Assembly (NCBI GenBank): GCA_028709085.1 | Contig: JAQVXQ010000011.1 | Coordinates: 1-42,337, forward strand | DNA length: 42,337 nt | Reading direction: 5' to 3' | Origin: Salinivirgaceae bacterium | GTDB taxonomy: Bacteria > Bacteroidota > Bacteroidia > Bacteroidales > Salinivirgaceae | Shown here: positions 24,770-34,683 of the stretch, one piece after another | Position numbering within the stretch: position 1 is the stretch's first letter | Layout of the letters: each line of letters starts with the position of its first letter | Translations under genes and position numbers: made by a program | Notes under the pieces: generated by a model | What the model was told of the DNA's origin: nothing | The model's input: the letters and a program-made list of their open reading frames with translations, nothing else | Databases searched by the model: none

Positions 24770-25663
24770 TTAATATGACCAAAGGTCTTGCTCCAAATCA
24801 AATATTTTATTTTTGATAATTTCTGCTTCCCATAATCCATATATTCCAAGCTCATAGTCAAAAATTGTTCTATCATTATAAACGTTGGACTCTTGAACTA
24901 TATAGCTGCTAAAAAATCTTTTAAAAAAGATATCATCAAAAGTTCGCCTTTCAGCGTCATTATTTGAATTGAAAATTGAATACTTAGCTAAAATAGGTCG
25001 TAATTCTGGAAAATAAACCCAAAAAGGACGTGTAAACTGAACCTGAGCATTAGCACCAGTGGTAGTTCCTTGAACGGCAGCACGAATTGCACAAAGTCCA
25101 AGTATTCGAACTTCAATTCTAGAACGCTCTTTATTAAAGAACCAATCTTCTTTCACCATCCATTGAATTACTTCCTCGGGAGCAATTGCTGAATAAGAGT
25201 TTGGATTAGTAGGATCTACTCCAAATTTCATTTCAATATCAGAGATTGTCAAGACCTTTTTGAAAAATTCATCTTCATATAGTTGAAGTATTGGGATCTT
25301 AGTTGAACTAGGATCAAGTCGAGCTGTAAGTGGATCAGATCCCGGTATGCGATCCGTTTGTTCATCTAACAAACCTTGCTGAGCACGCAAAATCAATGAA
25401 ATCAAACTCATTCGATCCATAATTGGCTCTACAGGAAAATAGAGCGGGTGATTCATTTTTTCACGCATATCTACTACTCGCCAAATACGCTTTTTCCACA
25501 TTACATCGGATTCGTGTAAATAATAGTATGGGATAGGTTTCCGAGCAGGTACATGTTCTTCATCATAAACACCAACTCTGTTGAATGTTTGTCCTTTCAC
25601 CATCGTTGAGGTGCCAAATAAACATCCAACAATTAAGACTAAAAATAGAGCATACCTTTTCAT
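24770..25663 (-). CDS. gldN: T9SS periplasmic protein GldN (PorN)
   Basis: GldN forms with the lipoprotein GldK the ring of the type IX secretion system beneath the outer membrane. The 297-residue protein has a signal peptide (MKRYALFLVLIVG to VKGQ) and the GldN family core: PYYYLHESDVMWKKRIWRV, DMREKMNHPLYFP, IAPEEVIQWMVKEDWFF and VQFTRPFWVYFPELRP. It is the last gene of porP-gldKLMN and starts 11 bases after gldM. Confidence 0.95.
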   Translation of the reverse strand: MKRYALFLVLIVGCLFGTSTMVKGQTFNRVGVYDEEHVPARKPIPYYYLHESDVMWKKRIWRVVDMREKMNHPLYFPVEPIMDRMSLISLILRAQQGLLDEQTDRIPGSDPLTARLDPSSTKIPILQLYEDEFFKKVLTISDIEMKFGVDPTNPNSYSAIAPEEVIQWMVKEDWFFNKERSRIEVRILGLCAIRAAVQGTTTGANAQVQFTRPFWVYFPELRPILAKYSIFNSNNDAERRTFDDIFFKRFFSSYIVQESNVYNDRTIFDYELGIYGLWEAEIIKNKIFDLEQDLWSY

Positions 25664-25674
25664 ATTGTCAGATT

Positions 25675-27294
25675 TTAATTAATTGTAAATACAAGTGACC
25701 CAATATTTTTATCTCCACCGGGCCCAGTGGCAATTATATTTTCGATAGTAAGTCGTTCGTTTCTTTTTAAAGAACGAATTTTATCGATTACCCGTTCGTT
25801 AAAATTCCGTCCTGTATTTGGAATTGGACTTGCATATAGACCGTCTTGCGTTACAAATGTGTAACTTTTTATCACATATGTAATGTTATCCATAATAAAA
25901 TTCTCCAACACAGCATCTACTCCTCCTGCCGAAAGCATATCAGTAGCTCTTATGCGTCCTGAAATCTTACCGTCCAATTTAGCCGTTGGAGGGGGCACGG
26001 GCATTATTCTAAAATTTTGACTTCTTATTCTTTGTTTTTTACCATCAACATCTGCCATCACTGTTATAACAACTTCACCTTTTGAAGCAGTAGGAGTAAT
26101 TTCCCAACCTTTTCCTTTTTTCACAATTCGAGCATTCGTAGCCGATGGATAAATTTTATCCATGCTAAGTCCTGGAACAGAAACTTCTAATGGATTAGGA
26201 ATCCCTGAGTAAAAAACCGTATTTGCTGATGCGGAAATCACTGCCATGGGATCATTGACCATATACTTATTTTTAAAGGGATATTGTTTATATGTCCCGT
26301 CTGGGGCTTTCATAACGATTAAACCACCCCACTCTGCTTCACCAGCGCGCCGTGCAACAGTAGTAAAAACTCCCATACCATTTCTAATAGGCAAAGAATC
26401 GTAATTACCCTTCATTTTATAACTACCATCTGCTTGTTCATCATAACTTCCAACATAAATAGTAGGAAATTGTGTTGTATCAAATGCGGCCATAAAAACT
26501 TTAGCGGAGAATTCTCCCCCAGTAATTATCCCACTACTCTCCGGAATCACAATCCCATCAAGCTTATTAAACTTAAATTCGCCTATATCAATTTGACCAT
26601 ATAAATACCTCAAAACATCGGCCTCAGCGTTACGAATATCACTCTGCAATTTAGTTAACATTGTAATTACAGCAACAAGGGGTATATCTTGAAATTGAGA
26701 TTGCTGCCAAGTTTGATTTGCTTCCTCAGCTGTTTTAGCTTTAGGAGGTGATGTATTGATGTTTTTTGCAATCGAATTTCTAACAATAGCATTTCCATCT
26801 GTATCTGGAATCAGATCAAAAAGATATTTTCTGTGTGCTTCTAGTTTTTCCTTAAGCTCTTGTCCCTTACCATTTCCAGTAGGTCCAATCATCACATTAT
26901 TACCTATAGTAGTATTATCTTTAACTGATATGTCTGCTGCTACAACCATATCATCAACAATAGCTATTGACTCCGGTCCTTCGGCTACAGTAACCAATTC
27001 CGTTTTCAATTGATTAACGTAATCATAAAGTTCATCTGATCTAACATGAACCACATCAGCCATGTCGGACCATTTTTTTACTTTTGCTTCGTTTATTACC
27101 TTTTGATTAGCAAATTCAGCATATACCTTTTTGTTTTTTTCGGTAAAGTTCTCAACCGTAACTGTCAAACTATCGTTAACCAGTACAAAAGAATCAAGAA
27201 CCTCCTTTGAAACTTTTATCGCTAACATAGCAGTCAAAAATAGGTACATCATACCTATCATCTTCTGCCTAGGGGTTTCCTTTCCGTGTCCCAT
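25675..27294 (-). CDS. gldM: T9SS motor protein GldM (PorM)
   Basis: GldM and GldL form the proton-driven motor that powers T9SS export and gliding. The 539-residue protein has the conserved start GKETPRQKMIGMMYLFLTAMLA with Arg9 before one membrane helix (about 12-32). In the F. johnsoniae complex the matching Arg meets a GldL glutamate. A large periplasmic part follows, with KQRIRSQNFRIMPVPPPTAKLDGK and a C-terminal domain that contacts the GldK/N ring. Length agrees with the family. It is separated by 9 bases from gldL and 11 from gldN. Confidence 0.96.
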   Translation of the reverse strand: MGHGKETPRQKMIGMMYLFLTAMLAIKVSKEVLDSFVLVNDSLTVTVENFTEKNKKVYAEFANQKVINEAKVKKWSDMADVVHVRSDELYDYVNQLKTELVTVAEGPESIAIVDDMVVAADISVKDNTTIGNNVMIGPTGNGKGQELKEKLEAHRKYLFDLIPDTDGNAIVRNSIAKNINTSPPKAKTAEEANQTWQQSQFQDIPLVAVITMLTKLQSDIRNAEADVLRYLYGQIDIGEFKFNKLDGIVIPESSGIITGGEFSAKVFMAAFDTTQFPTIYVGSYDEQADGSYKMKGNYDSLPIRNGMGVFTTVARRAGEAEWGGLIVMKAPDGTYKQYPFKNKYMVNDPMAVISASANTVFYSGIPNPLEVSVPGLSMDKIYPSATNARIVKKGKGWEITPTASKGEVVITVMADVDGKKQRIRSQNFRIMPVPPPTAKLDGKISGRIRATDMLSAGGVDAVLENFIMDNITYVIKSYTFVTQDGLYASPIPNTGRNFNERVIDKIRSLKRNERLTIENIIATGPGGDKNIGSLVFTIN

Positions 27295-27303
27295 AAGCTA
27301 CTA

Positions 27304-28485
27304 CTAATATTCGTTTAATGTAACGGTTGATAACATACTTCCATAAACTTCGTTCAGTTGTGAAAGTTGGTTATTTAATTTCTTTAATTCGTCTTTATAT
27401 GCAACAGTCTGTTGTAATCCTTCATTGAATCCCTCAACCATGTTTTTACTCTTTCCATTCAAATCTTCAATCATCTGGGTGTGCTGAGTAATATTCTGGA
27501 TGTGCAATTCGTAAACAGAATTAATCGCAGATAGGTTTTTATTCTGAGCCTCAATGTTTTGAGTATATCCTTGTGAACTCTTTTTAACACTATCAGCAGT
27601 TTGATTTAGATGGTCTAGCATTAATTGATAAGCTTGTCGCATCTCATTATCAGAATTACTGATGCTTTCTATCAATCGTGCTCCTGCATCACCAAGCGCT
27701 CCAACCATAGTTTTAACGCCACCATCCACTGTATTTGCAATTGTTTGTCCAGTAGAACTTATCAAATCTGCAGATTGTAAATATGATGTTGATAAACTTC
27801 CAACGGACTCTTTCAATATATCTGAACTATTGTTACATGCATTGGACAATCCCTCTGCAGCTTTGGCAGCACCTGAAATATTTTGTGAAAATTCTCCTGT
27901 AGATTCAATAGTTGCTTCAAGATTTTGAAATTTATCGGCAATATCACCCACTTTATGAATTCCCTCTCCCAATTTTTGAAACATTTCGGAAGACAAATTT
28001 GCTTCCGATAGCAGAGCATCAAACTTCTCAATAGCTTGGAAGCTTTGCATTCCAGCGCCTGTAAAGCCACCACCTGAAAAGCCACCCATTGCCGGAGCAT
28101 TCGGTTGTTGTACCACGCCACCATCAGGTTGATCGTAATCAAAGACTTGGGCGGGTGGTGGCATATTGCTGATATTCATTAATCGATTATCATGAAAACC
28201 CATTCCATGTCGATCTCCTTGATGACGCATTTCAAAGTCATCCGTCATTCCAGCAAGTTCGGGATATACTAAAGTCCAATCAACCTCCTCGTGTAAGGGT
28301 TCAAAAGCTGATAGAAAGAATATAAGAACCTCTGTTCCCATACCTGCAATTAACATAGGCCCAGCACCAGGCCAGTGCATGATTTTAAACAGGGCCCCCA
28401 TAAGTACTACGGCTGCTCCCCAACCGTAAACAAACTTCATTATGTTCTTATAGGCTTTACTTTCAACAAATTCGGATAGCGACAT
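27304..28485 (-). CDS. gldL: T9SS motor protein GldL (PorL), long form
   Basis: GldL is the inner-membrane stator-like partner of GldM. Two membrane helices lie at about 17-36 and 42-61, with the hallmark KIMHWPGAGPM between them. Lys34 and Glu52 (in GTEVLIFFLSAF) match the charged intramembrane residues important for proton-driven movement. A long cytoplasmic tail (about 140-393) is mostly heptad-like, coiled-coil sequence rich in Ser, Gln, Asn and Leu. At 393 residues it is longer than the GldL/PorL proteins I know of (roughly 210-310). It lies between gldK and gldM with gaps of 20 and 9 bases. Confidence 0.95.
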   Translation of the reverse strand: MSLSEFVESKAYKNIMKFVYGWGAAVVLMGALFKIMHWPGAGPMLIAGMGTEVLIFFLSAFEPLHEEVDWTLVYPELAGMTDDFEMRHQGDRHGMGFHDNRLMNISNMPPPAQVFDYDQPDGGVVQQPNAPAMGGFSGGGFTGAGMQSFQAIEKFDALLSEANLSSEMFQKLGEGIHKVGDIADKFQNLEATIESTGEFSQNISGAAKAAEGLSNACNNSSDILKESVGSLSTSYLQSADLISSTGQTIANTVDGGVKTMVGALGDAGARLIESISNSDNEMRQAYQLMLDHLNQTADSVKKSSQGYTQNIEAQNKNLSAINSVYELHIQNITQHTQMIEDLNGKSKNMVEGFNEGLQQTVAYKDELKKLNNQLSQLNEVYGSMLSTVTLNEY

Positions 28486-28505: not shown

Positions 28506-29975
28506 TTAATAAACAGATGATTTTGAAGAAACCGCAGGCTGCGATCCCATATGAGCTCGAACACACCTAAAGCCTATATATGACTTTGCTGTATCCTGAT
28601 ATTCGAATGTGCGCGTTCCATTTTGTAAGAAAAATGCAATATCTTTCCATGAACCGCCTCTGATTACTTTGCGTTTTAACACCGGCTGATCGTCTCTTTG
28701 TGCATTATATTCGTATGCAGGATTCATATCATGGGTGTAACTATATGAAGATTCATCAAAGGCATCTCTTGTCCATTCCGCAACGTTCCCAGCCATATCG
28801 TAGAGACCGTAATCGTTGGGATGGAATTTTCGTGCTTCTGAAGTAAATAAGTCTCCATCTTTTGTATAATCGCCCCTATTATTTTTAAAATTAGCTAAAA
28901 AACATCCATAAGAGTCTCTTGTATAATATCCACCCCAAGGGTACATCATTTGTTCAAGACCGCCTCGAGCAGCATATTCCCATTCCGCTTCAGTAGGTAA
29001 TTTATAATCGTGAATAAGTGCATTTCCTTGGGTTACCAACCAACTGTTCATTAAATTGGTTCTCCAAACACTAAATGCTGTTGCTTGCATCCAAGTTACT
29101 CCTACTACAGGATATTCATCAAAATTCGGATGTGTAAAATAGGTTGCAGCATACGGCTCGTTATAAGCAAATGAGAAATCGCCAACCCAGACCAATGTAT
29201 CCGGATAAACCAAAATTCGGTTTCTTTGAATAAATGATTTTCTATTCACATAACGTTCTTCAACAGCTTGAGCATTAAAAACGTTTGTTTCAGTATCTCC
29301 TTGATAATTATCTCTTTCTAGAACTTCAGCACTAAAGTTTCTACGACGTACCTTTCCATCTAATAAGAATTTCTGAGCTGCTTGTTGATAATCAACCCAT
29401 GAATACTCAAATACAAGTTTTCGAGTATCAATTTCTTCCATTCCAATATACTTCGTAAATCGTTCTTCGTTGGGATAGAATAATTTTTCTTTAATTACTG
29501 TGTATGGTTCATACATTTCAGGATCACTTCCATCCCAAGGAATTTGATATTCCCAATTTAAAGGTAAATCCTCTTCCTTAATAAAGAATGGTTCTTCGCG
29601 TAAGTCTTGCGAGTTTTTATTATAAACCATCCGTGTCTCTTCAATATCAAGATTTCCGCGCGTAGCAATTTCTAGACGTGCTATTGAATCTCTAACCCAA
29701 TATACGAACTGGCGATACTCATTGTTAGTGATCTCGGTGTCATCCATCCAGAATGCAGCGACTGAAACCGTTTTCGTTTCGGCATTGAGCGACCAAGGAA
29801 TGTCCTCGTCTCCTGCACCTTGAACAAAACTTCCTTGTGGAATTATGACCATTCCATATGGATCAACACTATATCCTGGAGCTCTGTCCTGTACTCCTAT
29901 AAGGTCTCCAGATTTTTTGTTAGAACAACCATATAGAAAAAGTGCTGCAAATAGTAAATACAATAGTCGTTTCAT
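28506..29975 (-). CDS. gldK: T9SS outer-membrane lipoprotein GldK (PorK)
   Basis: GldK is the lipoprotein of the T9SS ring. The 489-residue protein has a lipoprotein signal (MKRLLYLLFAALFLYGC, lipid-bearing Cys17) and a formylglycine-generating-enzyme-like (SUMF1) fold: IPQGSFVQGAGDEDIPWS, AAFWMDDTEITNNEYR, LPTEAEWEYAARGG, YDMAGNVAEWTRDAF and RGGSWKD. In this branch the fold is structural and the enzyme activity is not expected. It follows porP by 26 bases. Confidence 0.96.
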   Translation of the reverse strand: MKRLLYLLFAALFLYGCSNKKSGDLIGVQDRAPGYSVDPYGMVIIPQGSFVQGAGDEDIPWSLNAETKTVSVAAFWMDDTEITNNEYRQFVYWVRDSIARLEIATRGNLDIEETRMVYNKNSQDLREEPFFIKEEDLPLNWEYQIPWDGSDPEMYEPYTVIKEKLFYPNEERFTKYIGMEEIDTRKLVFEYSWVDYQQAAQKFLLDGKVRRRNFSAEVLERDNYQGDTETNVFNAQAVEERYVNRKSFIQRNRILVYPDTLVWVGDFSFAYNEPYAATYFTHPNFDEYPVVGVTWMQATAFSVWRTNLMNSWLVTQGNALIHDYKLPTEAEWEYAARGGLEQMMYPWGGYYTRDSYGCFLANFKNNRGDYTKDGDLFTSEARKFHPNDYGLYDMAGNVAEWTRDAFDESSYSYTHDMNPAYEYNAQRDDQPVLKRKVIRGGSWKDIAFFLQNGTRTFEYQDTAKSYIGFRCVRAHMGSQPAVSSKSSVY

Positions 29976-30001: not shown

Positions 30002-30934
30002 TTATAAATATCTAATACTTTTATAGTTCGATTGTTCTCTTTCAATTCCAATTTTGAAGACGTATCGCAAGAAAATTTCTACGGACCCATCATCATATTT
30101 TGCAATTTTAGAGGTTGTTACGTCGTAGGCTAATCCAAAATTTAATCCCTCAATAAATTCTGCGCCAATAAATGCTGTTATTGCGTCTGTGTTACGATAT
30201 CCAACACCTCCCCAAATTTTACCTTTATATTTTAAGGCCGCATTTACACTAATTTGGGTTGTACTTCCAGTTGTACGTATCAACAATGCAGGTTGAATTT
30301 CAAATAACGGATTCGATAGTTGATAATTGTATCCTCCTGTGATATTAAATTGTCTAGCCATGTTAGCATATGGTTTGTTATCTCCAGTTTTTGTTGCTAA
30401 ATCGCCTTCGTTTATATTCATTATTGATAGTCCTAAAAATACATTTGCTGCTTGATAAAATGCTCCTATATTTGCGGTAAATGCAATTTTACCTTTATCA
30501 GAAGGGTTTGGAATAACGGCATCATTGCCATTTATTGGTTCAAAAGAACCACTTAAAGTTTGACTAAAAAACCCTACGCCTCCACCTATACCTATTTTTC
30601 CAGAACCCACACCTTTTAAAAAACTATATGAAAGGGTTGCATTTATATCGTTGGCTAGTCCTATTTTATCATTGTACAATGCAAATCCAGCTCCATGCTC
30701 TGCCCCAAAAAGTTTAAATGGCATGTGAACATCAAATTTTTGCGTATTTGGAGCACCATCAAATCCCATCCATTGATTTCTTGCTAAAATGTTAACACAA
30801 ATACCCTCTTGCGATCCGGCATAACCTGGATTAATTGTCATTTGATCGTATACAAAGAACGTTGATTGCGGCAATACTTGCGCAGATAATGAAAATGTTA
30901 TTATACTAAATATGAGACTAATAAGTCGCTTCAT
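30002..30934 (-). CDS. porP: T9SS outer-membrane protein PorP (SprF family)
   Basis: This 310-residue outer-membrane beta-barrel protein leads the gldKLMN operon. It has a signal peptide (to LSAQ), the family marks INPGYAGSQEG and RNQWMGFDGAPNTQ, and then repeated barrel strands. In other members PorP takes part in T9SS assembly at the outer membrane. The C-terminal OmpA domain seen in the paralogue at 0.8-2.3 kb is absent here. Confidence 0.94.
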   Translation of the reverse strand: MKRLISLIFSIITFSLSAQVLPQSTFFVYDQMTINPGYAGSQEGICVNILARNQWMGFDGAPNTQKFDVHMPFKLFGAEHGAGFALYNDKIGLANDINATLSYSFLKGVGSGKIGIGGGVGFFSQTLSGSFEPINGNDAVIPNPSDKGKIAFTANIGAFYQAANVFLGLSIMNINEGDLATKTGDNKPYANMARQFNITGGYNYQLSNPLFEIQPALLIRTTGSTTQISVNAALKYKGKIWGGVGYRNTDAITAFIGAEFIEGLNFGLAYDVTTSKIAKYDDGSVEIFLRYVFKIGIEREQSNYKSIRYL

Positions 30935-31006
30935 TCTCGAAAATTCAGAATCATTTTTGCTCGGAATCTACCGAACGGTAAAGTAAATAAAAATATGTTG
31001 CCTATG

Positions 31007-31039
31007 CAAACTTATTAACAACTGTTTGTTGATAAGTTT
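31007..31039 (-). promoter_or_regulatory. Dyad overlapping the porP-gldKLMN promoter
   Basis: AAACTTATTAACAA (31008-31021) and TTGTTGATAAGTTT (31026-31039) form a 14-base inverted repeat with one mismatch and a 4-base spacer. On the minus strand TAAGTTTG (31014 to 31007), an exact TAnnTTTG match, lies within one arm. This gives a possible operator over the promoter, about 70 bases before porP. It could instead be a 3' hairpin of the upstream gene, though no T-run follows. Confidence 0.45.
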
Positions 31040-31101: not shown

Positions 31102-32250
31102 CTATTGTTGTGTTAGATAAAAATAAATTCTGTCGGATATCAGATTATTTACGGCATTAAGATATTCAGGTTTCGAAACAGCAAGGAATTTATCGCCCTT
31201 TCCCTCATTTATTGTGGGCAATTTAAGCCAATAACGATTACTTAATATGCTTTTACAAAAGACCAACTCTTGACGAATACTTTCAACATTAACATGCAAT
31301 TGTAAAAACTGATCGATGGAAAAGTGCGGATCTTCGCCCAATCGTTTTGAACATCCATCGAAAAAATGCCATATTATTTGTGCTACTAGTTTAGCTCCCG
31401 CTTTTCGATTGTCATATTCACTGAAATAATTAAACAATCCAAAAAGCGAAACTCTTTCAGAATAACCCGCATACCATGCTAGTTGGCAAGCCTCTTCGGC
31501 ATAAAGTCCATTGGGCATTCCCAAATAATTAGCCGGATTATCACTCATTCGTATGGCATTGAGGTCAAAACTTACGCTGTCCGAATTGCGAAAAAAAGCC
31601 TCTGATTCAAACAGTTCGGCACGTAATAATCCAAGTCGGTGATTAATAATTAAAGAGTTGGTTTCTGAAAAGAAGGGTTCAAGATCACAATAGTATGATT
31701 GAGTTCCTAATATTGTGAGCTCTTGTACGTTTTGTTTGAAATCAGTTTGAATTTTATGAAAATAGCAATCTTGATTAACTATATTTAATTCCTCGTGTTG
31801 ATTATCAAACATATAATCAATGTGCAAGTGATTCAATGGGTCTCCTATTTGTGTGAAATATTGATATATGGAATATATCATACTATCATCGGATCCAAAA
31901 AATATGGGCACAATCTTTTTTTTGTGTAATTCGCAGAAAATAAAGGCAAGTGCAAAATAAGTGTCCCTACGCGTTTTTCCAATTTTAAGTTCCCCTAAAT
32001 CAATGATTTTCCTCGATATTTGACCTTTCGTCAAGCCGTAAAGTTGTTCTCGCACGTGAAATGCAGAGGAGCTCGATTTTTCGGAAATATGGGGATTATT
32101 GCGATAATCGGCAACAGAAAACAATGCTATACGAATATCTGCATCGCTTTGCTTTTTATGCCAACCTTGGAAAATAAACTGCCCCAGAGTTCCGTCCACA
32201 ATCGTTAAATCGTCGGCTGGAGCAGTGAAGTATGTTTGTAACTCTAACAT
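31102..32250 (-). CDS. Arginase/formimidoylglutamase-fold protein with altered metal site
   Basis: This 382-residue protein has the ureohydrolase (arginase) fold but not its full metal site. Where arginases have GGDHS it has GSDDS (119-123, His to Asp at 122). Where they have DAHxD it reads DYMFD (His to Met). Where they have SxDxD it has SFDLNAIR (second Asp to Asn). Similar proteins annotated as formimidoylglutamase occur in Bacteroidota genomes, but catalysis by this one is doubtful. It sits 6 bases after topA and 167 bases before porP-gldKLMN. Its role is unknown, and regulation or T9SS-linked binding is only a guess. Confidence 0.7.
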   Translation of the reverse strand: MLELQTYFTAPADDLTIVDGTLGQFIFQGWHKKQSDADIRIALFSVADYRNNPHISEKSSSSAFHVREQLYGLTKGQISRKIIDLGELKIGKTRRDTYFALAFIFCELHKKKIVPIFFGSDDSMIYSIYQYFTQIGDPLNHLHIDYMFDNQHEELNIVNQDCYFHKIQTDFKQNVQELTILGTQSYYCDLEPFFSETNSLIINHRLGLLRAELFESEAFFRNSDSVSFDLNAIRMSDNPANYLGMPNGLYAEEACQLAWYAGYSERVSLFGLFNYFSEYDNRKAGAKLVAQIIWHFFDGCSKRLGEDPHFSIDQFLQLHVNVESIRQELVFCKSILSNRYWLKLPTINEGKGDKFLAVSKPEYLNAVNNLISDRIYFYLTQQ

Positions 32251-32256
32251 GGATTA

Positions 32257-34683
32257 CTATTTCTTATCCGTTGATTTTTTAGATTTCGTTGTCGTTTTCG
32301 CTTTTACAACAGTACTCTTGGTTGTTTTTGGTTTTGTAGTTGTACTCTTGGTAACTTTTGTTCCCCTAGTTGTTTTTCCCTTTTTACTGGATTCTTGACT
32401 GTTTATGAGTTCAAAACACTGTTCAATTGTCAGACTGGCAGGATCTTGTGTTTTAGGAATTTTAAAATTCTTCTTTTGATACGAGATATAAGGACCATAG
32501 CGACCATTTAAAATTAATAGTTCGGGTTGCTCATCAAATCGCTGAATCACTTTTTTTGCATCGGCCTCGCGTTTAGCTAGAATAATTTCGATGGCACGAT
32601 TATGATCGATAAGATCAATATCTTCGGTTTTAGCAATGCTGTAAAACAATCCCTTATGTTTTAAATAAGGGCCAAAACGTCCAATTCCAAAAGTAATGGT
32701 TTCATCTTCAAAAATTCCATAATCTTTGGGTGGCGCAAATAAATCCAACGCCTCTTTCAGGGTTATGGATTCAAGACTTTGATTTGGTCGCAATGAGGCA
32801 AATTTCGGTTTCTCCTCGTCATCGGCAACTCCAATTTGTGCCATTGGTCCATATCGGCCAATACGTACAGAAATCTGCTTCCCAGATTCCGGCTCAATCC
32901 CAAGGATTCGTTCCCCAACTTTTTTACCCTCTTTTTCCTGAGCAGCTTCTGTAACTGTATCATGGAATGGGAAGTAAAAATCTTTTATCATTTTTTGCCA
33001 CTCAACATTTCCATCGGCAATATCATCAAATATTTTTTCAATATTGGCAGTAAAGCCGTAGTTCATTATACCGTCGAATTTCTCAACCAAATAGTCATTT
33101 ACGACAATCCCTATGTCGGTTGGGAATAGTTTGGATTTTTCGGCTCCATAGTTTTCTGCGCGTTTTGATTTCTTAATGGCACTATTTTGTAGTGCAATAA
33201 TTGAAATCTGACGGGTATTTCCGGGACGGTCCTCCTTAACAACGTAGCCCCGTTGCTGAATTGTGGATATTGTAGGTGCATATGTAGATGGTCGGCCTAT
33301 TCCTAATTCTTCGAGCTTTCGAACTAATGTTGCCTCAGAATATCTTGGGGGATGCAGTGTAAATCGTTCTATGGCTTCAATTAACTTCGTCTCCAGATCC
33401 TGACCAACTTGTATTGGGGGCAATATTTTAGAGTTTTTTGTCTCCTTTGAATCATCGTCCTCTTCCACCGATTCGATGTACAATTTCAAGAATCCATCGA
33501 ACTTAATAACTTCTCCCGTTGCTACAAATTTGTATTCTTTTTCAGGCGTGGGAATCGTAATATTTGTTTTTTCAAGTTTAGCATCGCTCATTTGAGAAGC
33601 CAACGTTCGTTTCCAAATCAATTCATAAAGTCGTTGATCGGCTGCATTTCCGCTTATCTGTTCGTGTTCGAAATAAGTGGGACGAATGGCTTCGTGAGCC
33701 TCTTGGGCTCCTTTTGTTTTGGTTGTATACCTTCGTACATTTGAATATTCTTCGCCAAAGAGTTTTGTTATCTGCGATTTAGCATCAGCAATGGCATCTT
33801 CGGAGAGATTGGTAGAGTCGGTACGCATATAGGTAATGTGTCCGCTTTCGTATAATCGCTGAGCTACGACCATGGTTTGTGCTACCGAGAATCCAAATTT
33901 CCGACTTGCCTCTTGCTGCAGTGTAGATGTAGTAAATGGGGCAGATGGTGATTTTTTTGCCGGTTTTGTTTGGATATCGCTAACACTAAATTGATGTTTT
34001 GCCGATACCGTTAATAGTTGGTTTACCTCGTTCTCGTCCAAACGTTTATTTAACTCTGCCTCAATAATATAATCACGTTTATCTTTTGTATAAACAAAAT
34101 GTCCTGTGGTTTTGTAGCTTGATTGTGAATCAAATGCCTGAATCTCTCTATCTCGCTCTACGAGTAATCGAACGGCAACAGATTGTACTCGTCCAGCAGA
34201 AAGCGATGGTTTTATTTTTTTCCACAACAACGGAGAAATTTCAAATCCTACAATTCGGTCTAAAATTCTACGAGCTTGTTGTGCATTTACTAGGTGTTGG
34301 TCAATATCCCGCGGATTTTCGATGGCTTTAACGATCGCCTTTTGTGTAATCTCGTGAAAAACAATCCTTTTAGACGTTTTGTTATCCAGCTTTAGCACTT
34401 GCGCTAAATGCCATGCTATTGCTTCTCCTTCGCGGTCCTCATCGGATGCGAGATAGACCATCTCGGCTTTTTTAACACTTTCTTTAAGTTCTGCAACAAC
34501 TTTCTTTTTGTCGGGATCTACTTCATAGTTAGGTTCAAAATCCTTCTCAATATCAATTCCGAGATTTTTTTTTGCTAAATCGCGAATATGTCCATAGCTC
34601 GATTTAACAGTAAAGTCCTTTCCCAGGAATTTTTCAATGGTTTTTGCCTTTGCAGGTGACTCAACTATAACAAGATTCTTCAT
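32257..34683 (-). CDS. topA: DNA topoisomerase I
   Basis: TopA relaxes negative supercoils by cutting and rejoining one DNA strand. The 808-residue protein has the Toprim start (VIVESPAKAKTIEKFLG), DEDREGEAIAWHL, SAGRVQSVAVRLLVERDREI, and the catalytic Tyr285 in ITYMRTDSTNLS. The C-terminal half has repeat modules (RIGRYGPMAQIG, GRFGPYLKHKG, NGRYGPYISYQKKNFKIP) in place of Cys zinc fingers. It ends with about 45 residues of Lys/Thr/Ser-rich sequence, probably disordered and DNA-binding. The gene is followed within 6 bases by the arginase-fold gene. Confidence 0.97.
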   Translation of the reverse strand: MKNLVIVESPAKAKTIEKFLGKDFTVKSSYGHIRDLAKKNLGIDIEKDFEPNYEVDPDKKKVVAELKESVKKAEMVYLASDEDREGEAIAWHLAQVLKLDNKTSKRIVFHEITQKAIVKAIENPRDIDQHLVNAQQARRILDRIVGFEISPLLWKKIKPSLSAGRVQSVAVRLLVERDREIQAFDSQSSYKTTGHFVYTKDKRDYIIEAELNKRLDENEVNQLLTVSAKHQFSVSDIQTKPAKKSPSAPFTTSTLQQEASRKFGFSVAQTMVVAQRLYESGHITYMRTDSTNLSEDAIADAKSQITKLFGEEYSNVRRYTTKTKGAQEAHEAIRPTYFEHEQISGNAADQRLYELIWKRTLASQMSDAKLEKTNITIPTPEKEYKFVATGEVIKFDGFLKLYIESVEEDDDSKETKNSKILPPIQVGQDLETKLIEAIERFTLHPPRYSEATLVRKLEELGIGRPSTYAPTISTIQQRGYVVKEDRPGNTRQISIIALQNSAIKKSKRAENYGAEKSKLFPTDIGIVVNDYLVEKFDGIMNYGFTANIEKIFDDIADGNVEWQKMIKDFYFPFHDTVTEAAQEKEGKKVGERILGIEPESGKQISVRIGRYGPMAQIGVADDEEKPKFASLRPNQSLESITLKEALDLFAPPKDYGIFEDETITFGIGRFGPYLKHKGLFYSIAKTEDIDLIDHNRAIEIILAKREADAKKVIQRFDEQPELLILNGRYGPYISYQKKNFKIPKTQDPASLTIEQCFELINSQESSKKGKTTRGTKVTKSTTTKPKTTKSTVVKAKTTTKSKKSTDKK

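Follow-up and report, generated by a model that had tools for sequence, protein, structure and literature searches.

The window (the whole stretch of 42,337 nucleotides that was analysed) carries on its minus strand the gene order topA, arginase-fold gene, porP and gldKLMN, as the initial annotation had it; the gaps on either side of the arginase-fold gene are given with the other features in Table 1. When translated, the opposite (plus) strand of 31102-32250 contains many stops. The N-terminus of the encoded protein is devoid of any signal-peptide-like stretch, as judged by reading, and the protein would thus be soluble and cytosolic. Further downstream, the GldL of the window has 393 residues and matches the 247-position GldL model in separate pieces, a long middle region with weak SMC-like matches lying in between.

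Table 1. Features of the arginase-fold locus (positions in the window unless another locus is named)
Feature	Position	Strand	Remarks
Arginase-fold protein, HutG-derived, metal site incomplete (P0001, 382 aa)	31102..32250	-	ORF call, fold, profile comparison
GSDDS, residues 119-123	31882..31896	-	Canonical GGDHS/GGxHD; ligand position 122 is Asp
DYMFD, residues 145-149	31804..31818	-	Canonical DAHxD; Met147 is the His126 equivalent; both Asp kept
SFDLN, residues 227-231	31558..31572	-	Canonical SxDxD; D229 (Asp232 equivalent) kept; Asn231 is the Asp234 equivalent
E252-E253	31492..31497	-	Counterpart of E253 in B. subtilis HutG: Glu of PGGLYTDE
C-terminal domain, residues 305-382	31105..31338	-	Not in the 14 canonical HutG-like proteins
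topA (DNA topoisomerase I)	32257..34683	-	Immediately upstream, 6-nt gap
porP/sprF, first T9SS gene downstream	30002..30934	-	167-nt gap
gldK	28506-29975	-	
gldL	27304-28485	-	
gldM	25675-27294	-	
ORF in gldN position	24770-25663	-	Assigned by position
TTTACTTTACCGT (TTTACTTTACYGT)	30975..30987	-	Gene-porP gap
S13 carboxypeptidase, f4 example	L075:6589-7980	-	
S13 carboxypeptidase, f4 example	L110:8989-10314	+	

Three of the usual metal ligands had been said to be replaced, and this is confirmed in the 382-residue ORF (GSDDS, DYMFD, SFDLN): the six ligand positions read D-D-M-D-D-N, and a complete binuclear site is not found. When the family profile is aligned with B. subtilis HutG (3m1r), the three motifs fall on GGDNS, DAHHD and SVDMD. 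The change of GGDHS into GSDDS is present but is not diagnostic by itself, as the B. subtilis enzyme has GGDNS, and position 122 of canonical HutG-like proteins is His in 10/14 and Asn in 4/14; GSDDS therefore carries little weight, as either His or Asn can stand at that position in HutGs. The changes that are diagnostic, and strong evidence, affect the DAHxD His and the second Asp of the SxDxD motif.

Fold, ancestry and metal ligands of the family

An AlphaFold2 model, obtained with 74 relatives as a monomer without ligands, has a mean pLDDT of 84.2 and a pTM of 0.89, with weak loops at residues 151-170 (block pLDDT 49 and 59). Its best VIA match is T. cruzi formiminoglutamase (Z 31.0 over 276 residues, rmsd 2.9), followed by B. 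subtilis HutG (Z 29.7), whose structure 3m1r is also the top Foldseek match (E 3.5e-14). At the profile level, hhalign aligns residues 1-308 with the 14 canonical HutG-like rows (probability 100, E 1.2e-52), and 41 of 44 family members are hit by Pfam Arginase at 0.01, the window protein itself being unmatched. Metformin hydrolase subunits are also found among the Foldseek and VIA matches; histone deacetylases and the T. brucei arginase-like protein are absent among the best 50 VIA matches, which excludes nothing. The predicted structure confirms that the fold is that of the HutG-type arginase/deacetylase (ureohydrolase) superfamily.

Of 296 genomes from across the phylum, 94 have a family match; 69 belong to the class of the window (its own genome included) and 25 do not. 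Matches from 14 of these 25 were fetched, and all are canonical HutG-like proteins. Among close relatives, 46 of 60 have a match, and a profile search at the level of the order retrieves 182 of 247 genomes at 1e-5, of which 171 reach 1e-50. Scanning the genomes of named species with a DNA pattern gives at least 577 encoding relatives, and the 80 loci kept for synteny are the best matches to one Bacteroidales-like query and hence a biased sample. After removal of 20 exact duplicates and three short rows (L070, L089, L172), 152 non-identical members were aligned with the 14 canonical proteins.

In this alignment, position 147 (the His of DAHxD, His126) has a residue other than His in 145/152 relatives, and position 231 (the second Asp of SxDxD, Asp234) one other than Asp in 148/152, no relative having both of these second-site-specific ligands together (0/152). 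The first-site residues D145, D149 and D229 are all present in 136/152, position 122 is most often Gln (Q 123, H 14, N 8, D 3), and E253 is Glu in 144/152. If Asn is allowed at position 122, two ligands are replaced in 22 members, three in 118, four in five, five in six and six in one. When the 378 columns are ranked by conservation over 52 representatives of less than 60% identity, the kept Asp come 27th, 39th and 46th and E253 36th, against 336th for the lost position 147 and 193rd for position 231; the first metal site is also gone in 10 of these representatives. These results show that the second metal site has been lost across the family and that most of the first has been retained. The substituted ligands noticed at the start are thus real, but they are a trait of the whole family and not of the window protein specifically; a window-specific oddity was considered and rejected, as the same positions are degenerate family-wide.

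A HutG-like protein of genome G381 (L203:1707-2723, minus strand) has GGGHE and DAHFD but CSDVF for SxDxD; by eye, Cys seems to have taken the place of the first Asp of SxDxD, while the rest of the protein looks canonical.

A phylogeny with mapped ligands had been proposed as a check. A maximum-likelihood tree was built by a quick method from 69 rows, and in it all 54 degenerate ones do form one group (SH-aLRT 99, stem 1.35), apart from the intact HutG-like rows and from one row with a single Asp-to-Asn change. Six long end branches are flagged in this tree and one long-branch join is warned of, and such long branches make the deeper order uncertain. The grouping fits with a single loss at the base of the clade.

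The name formimidoylglutamase is said to be in use for such proteins, and it had been suspected that it may be wrong. Our results bear out this doubt: the window protein scores 33.8 bits with TIGR01227 (HutG), against a curated cut-off of 229.15 bits. Six canonical HutG-like relatives that were scanned score 176-217 bits, also under the cut-off, so that their HutG name, too, is one that we infer. In the canonical loci examined, a HutI-like cluster lies within four genes in 6/6 and a urocanase cluster in 3/6, and neither is found in the 19 degenerate-family loci clustered alongside them; one representative of each cluster was confirmed by Pfam (amidohydrolase; urocanase). The search for histidine-degradation genes elsewhere in the genome, which had also been suggested, is answered in part: hutH, hutU (urocanase) and an FTCD_N (formiminotransferase) homologue are found away from the window gene; as for another hutG, the only other PF00491 arginase-family match lies on another contig, has intact GGDHS, DAHAD and SFDID motifs and is agmatinase-like. 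Beside it lies what reads, from its sequence, as a polyamine-synthesis gene.

The proteins of the family extend past the canonical end by a median of about 83 residues, vs 0-6 in canonical rows, and this C-terminal domain carries the family motif RWWMEVP ... PCSYxDY ... PDRWW. W341, C358 and Y363 are each found in 148/152 relatives and in 0/14 canonical proteins; the window protein has Val at 358. Predicted alone, the domain has a pLDDT of 81.4 and a pTM of 0.73. It has no Pfam match up to E 1, and neither Foldseek (best E 0.58) nor VIA (best Z 4.2) gives a clear fold match. Kinship with the PARP WGR domain is not claimed, as the VIA Z of 2.9-3.4 is at noise level. R205, E217, R221 and C255 are among the most conserved columns and are new relative to HutG.

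Selection was estimated in the f6 family (18 loci), as the genus relatives of the window, at 39-41% identity, are too diverged for dN/dS. Every computable pair above 75% identity has a dN/dS of at most 0.091, many dS being saturated, and the seven f6 pairs with a dS of 1.07 or less give 0.009-0.057. These ratios show strong purifying selection where it is measurable. A pseudogene, or relaxed decay, is rejected on account of the open frame and of the low dN/dS in the f6 family.

The topA and T9SS neighbourhood

topA lies upstream in 61/69 named loci with enough flank. In same-order loci from whole genomes, topA is found in 20/20 and porP/gldK in 16/20; in class-level loci outside the order, topA is on the same strand within 4 kb in 8/25 (adjacent in six) and porP/gldK are downstream in 6/25. 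The gap to topA has a median of 19 nt and is of 30 nt or less in 55/92 loci, vs a median of 168 nt and 0/61 loci for the gap to porP/gldK; these gap counts pool two locus sets sharing some genomes, and L125 gives two topA pieces. Gene order thus shows topA to be the commonest and closest neighbour in the order of the window. Co-expression with topoisomerase I is likely because the topA junction is tight, which does not by itself imply contact between the two proteins.

In the f4 genome family, an S13-type D-Ala-D-Ala carboxypeptidase gene follows the arginase-fold gene in L075, L106, L107 and L110, without T9SS genes there. It overlaps the gene or lies within 44 nt of it in these four loci, which were read (two were Pfam-checked), and the S13 carboxypeptidase cluster also occurs in L077 (f4).

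The protein had been described as tied to the secretion locus. The adjacency is indeed conserved in many genomes, with porP/gldK downstream in 31/59 testable named loci, but topA is both a commoner and a much tighter neighbour. Strong matches (E of 1e-50 or less) are found in 169/229 T9SS-positive vs 2/18 T9SS-negative genomes of the order (Fisher p 1.7e-7, uncorrected for kinship). T9SS status is defined here by GldL over cut-off; GldK was sought in 7/20 GldL-negative genomes, two of which (G477 and G524) have GldK and were counted as T9SS-positive, while 13 of the 18 negatives are called from GldL only. Eleven matches weaker than 1e-50, including that of G381 (canonical-type HutG), are not counted as strong. 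In a wider sample, 69 of 71 class genomes with GldL over cut-off match the family.

Presence of the gene and presence of the T9SS do not always go together. Of the 229 T9SS-positive genomes, 60 are without a strong match, ten of these giving a weak one, and G190 and G249, with both GldK and GldL, have no family match. In G520, a genome of one contig that is 99% complete, the gene lies 6 nt from topA, and GldK and GldL, which were both sought there, are not detected. Its protein (L202:7044-8036, minus strand, 330 aa) has lost GGxxD and DxxxD and keeps the D229-equivalent Asp and the C-terminal motifs. In L204, from G521, the other T9SS-negative genome with a strong match (83% complete, 7% contamination), the gene is also 6 nt from topA, all three metal motifs are altered, and the C-terminal motifs are kept except for C358, which is Ala. 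The gene is nested among T9SS bearers and is not needed by them, since T9SS-positive genomes without a strong match exist; the proposed tie is real, but it comes second to the link with topA. In L202, the neighbours are topA and a PBP1-like gene, an arrangement that looks like the block with its T9SS genes excised.

The gap between the gene and porP contains TTTACTTTACCGT, which is also present in the same gap of both other genus members fetched (L051 and L052), although identity between their arginase-fold proteins and that of the window is only 39-41%; the 14-letter form of the sequence occurs once in the genome of the window. A role as promoter or operator for the T9SS unit is probable. A near-perfect palindrome (31009-31039, minus strand, -9.4 kcal/mol) also lies in this gap and is not evident in L051 and L052.

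The core consensus of Bacteroidota promoters is TAnnTTTG. Such cores are found in 26/61 gene-to-T9SS gaps, vs 9.3 expected from base shuffles, and in 16/37 topA-to-gene gaps of more than 30 nt, vs 4.2 expected. As they also occur in these long topA-to-gene gaps, some members probably have a promoter of their own.

Possible function and comparison with known systems

Taking all these results together, we lean towards a pseudoenzyme family of Bacteroidota, descended from a formimidoylglutamase-type ureohydrolase, encoded in the topA unit and acting by binding. That two-metal hydrolysis has been lost is very probable, and chances are about even that the protein serves for binding or regulation in connection with the topA unit. 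Loss of second-site ligands abolishes the bridging-hydroxide chemistry of the superfamily; the two-metal hydroxide chemistry of arginase and HutG would be impossible for the family, which, judging by its residues, could not be a formimidoylglutamase by the known mechanism. The initial annotation had left a choice between a different metal and substrate and a non-catalytic binding protein. The latter is the better half of this alternative, because selection is strong, the extra domain is conserved and an acidic pocket is kept.

In the proposed mechanism, the protein would be made together with TopA and would be soluble and cytosolic. Its acidic remnant pocket could bind a cation, which might be a guanidinium compound, a single metal ion or the side chain of an Arg in a partner. 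The contact important to the cell may be formed jointly by the C-terminal domain and the R205/E217/R221 motif, which is new. L202 and L204 have lost the pocket yet kept the C-terminal part, which suggests that this part carries the core function. The downstream T9SS genes would be a separate unit, having the neighbourhood but not the mechanism in common with the gene. Two points run counter to this reading: the topA link is not universal, as seen in class-level loci outside the order (8/25), and L202 retains the Asp equivalent to D229.

A further counterpoint is that the first-site Asp stand above most columns in conservation, which would be odd if no metal or cation were bound and would favour a one-metal protein, with the second site (His126/Asp234) deleted and the first (122, D145, D149, D229) holding a single ion for a new chemistry or for metal sensing. 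Such a protein is rather unlikely in our opinion. With Asp at position 122, the window protein would have a site of four Asp, as suits a hard ion; position 122 is occupied by Q, H, N, D or E alongside all three Asp in 136/152 relatives and 42/52 representatives, and losses in 145 and 148 of 152 are those of second-site-specific ligands. However, the 10/52 representatives that keep the gene without the site include members of f5 (L083) and f7 (L086-L088) and the same-family L062 and L063; L202 and L204 are also without the first site, and Gln, the usual residue at position 122, is generally a poor metal ligand. A bolder version, about as doubtful, is that a class-wide family kept the first metal site only, a HutG having become a regulator that responds to a single ion or to guanidinium. 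This regulator would carry a new C-terminal domain, would be made together with topoisomerase I and would often be encoded just ahead of the T9SS core genes. Such a retention of the first site would be the reverse of histone deacetylases, which keep the second metal site.

The conserved order with porP/gldKLMN (31/59 testable and 16/20 same-order loci), the co-occurrence with the T9SS at the level of the order and the 69/71 class genomes would all be expected of a cytosolic accessory factor dedicated to type IX secretion. We nevertheless hold this role to be unlikely, given the T9SS-positive genomes without a strong match, including G190 and G249 with no match, the presence of the gene in G520 with GldK and GldL undetected, the f3, f4, f10 and f11 loci without T9SS linkage, and a porP gap that is long and enriched in promoter-like sites. 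Even less probable is a partnership like that of MetCb with MetCa, in which the protein would be an inactive subunit stabilising a catalytic arginase-fold enzyme whose gene lies elsewhere. The structural matches do include metformin hydrolase subunits, PMC11271267 documents pseudo/active pairs from other phyla, and the genome of the window has one active-looking, agmatinase-like gene; this is, however, its only other arginase-family match and lies on a different contig, and the 56 pairs listed in PMC11271267 come from four phyla, Bacteroidota not being among them. A true formimidoylglutamase with an unusual metal site has HutGs as its closest fold and profile matches in its favour, but is hardly credible in view of the 33.8 bits obtained, the lost ligands, the lack of HutI-like and urocanase clusters in the 19 degenerate loci and the FTCD_N homologue in the genome.

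The family is strongly preserved and is present in most T9SS-bearing Bacteroidota sampled, and its HutG-like sequence invites the name formimidoylglutamase, the correction of which would remove a false histidine-degradation step from metabolic reconstructions. Researchers on the T9SS and gliding would gain a defined gene just upstream of gldK, and the family would offer a natural case of the loss of half a binuclear metal site. We found no description of it in the open-access literature, which does not show that it is undescribed.

Arginase-fold proteins with a lost metal site are a kind already known, of which the window family is a variant. With HutG (TIGR01227; B. subtilis 3m1r; T. cruzi 4mxr/4myn), it shares the fold over residues 17-305, the GG motif, D145/D149/D229, the Glu at 253 and the order of the motifs in the sequence. 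It differs from HutG by the absence of second-site ligands, by the extra C-terminal domain and by the lack of hut genes around the loci examined, and the window protein differs by a score far under the TIGR01227 cut-off. The T. brucei arginase-like protein, reportedly described by Hai et al. in 2015, is said to have an arginase fold without the binuclear manganese cluster and to belong to the arginase lineage, not to that of HutG. It shares with the window family the arginase fold and the loss of the binuclear cluster; however, it is the protein of a parasite, whereas the window family is a bacterial clade that spans a class, carries an extra domain and often has the same neighbour. The T. brucei protein, which PMC5602898 and PMC11271267 cite, is a known metal-free arginase-fold protein. 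The metformin hydrolase subunit MetCb, or MefH-beta, is described in PMC11271267 and PMC11399263 as a non-catalytic arginase-fold subunit with three to five of six ligands changed, which forms a heterohexamer with an active partner and is encoded with it as a gene pair. With three ligands changed, the window protein falls within this range, but the paired active gene is absent, the sole other PF00491 match being on another contig. The window family is thus set apart from the known metal-free arginase-fold proteins by its HutG ancestry, its added domain and the absence of a paired active gene.
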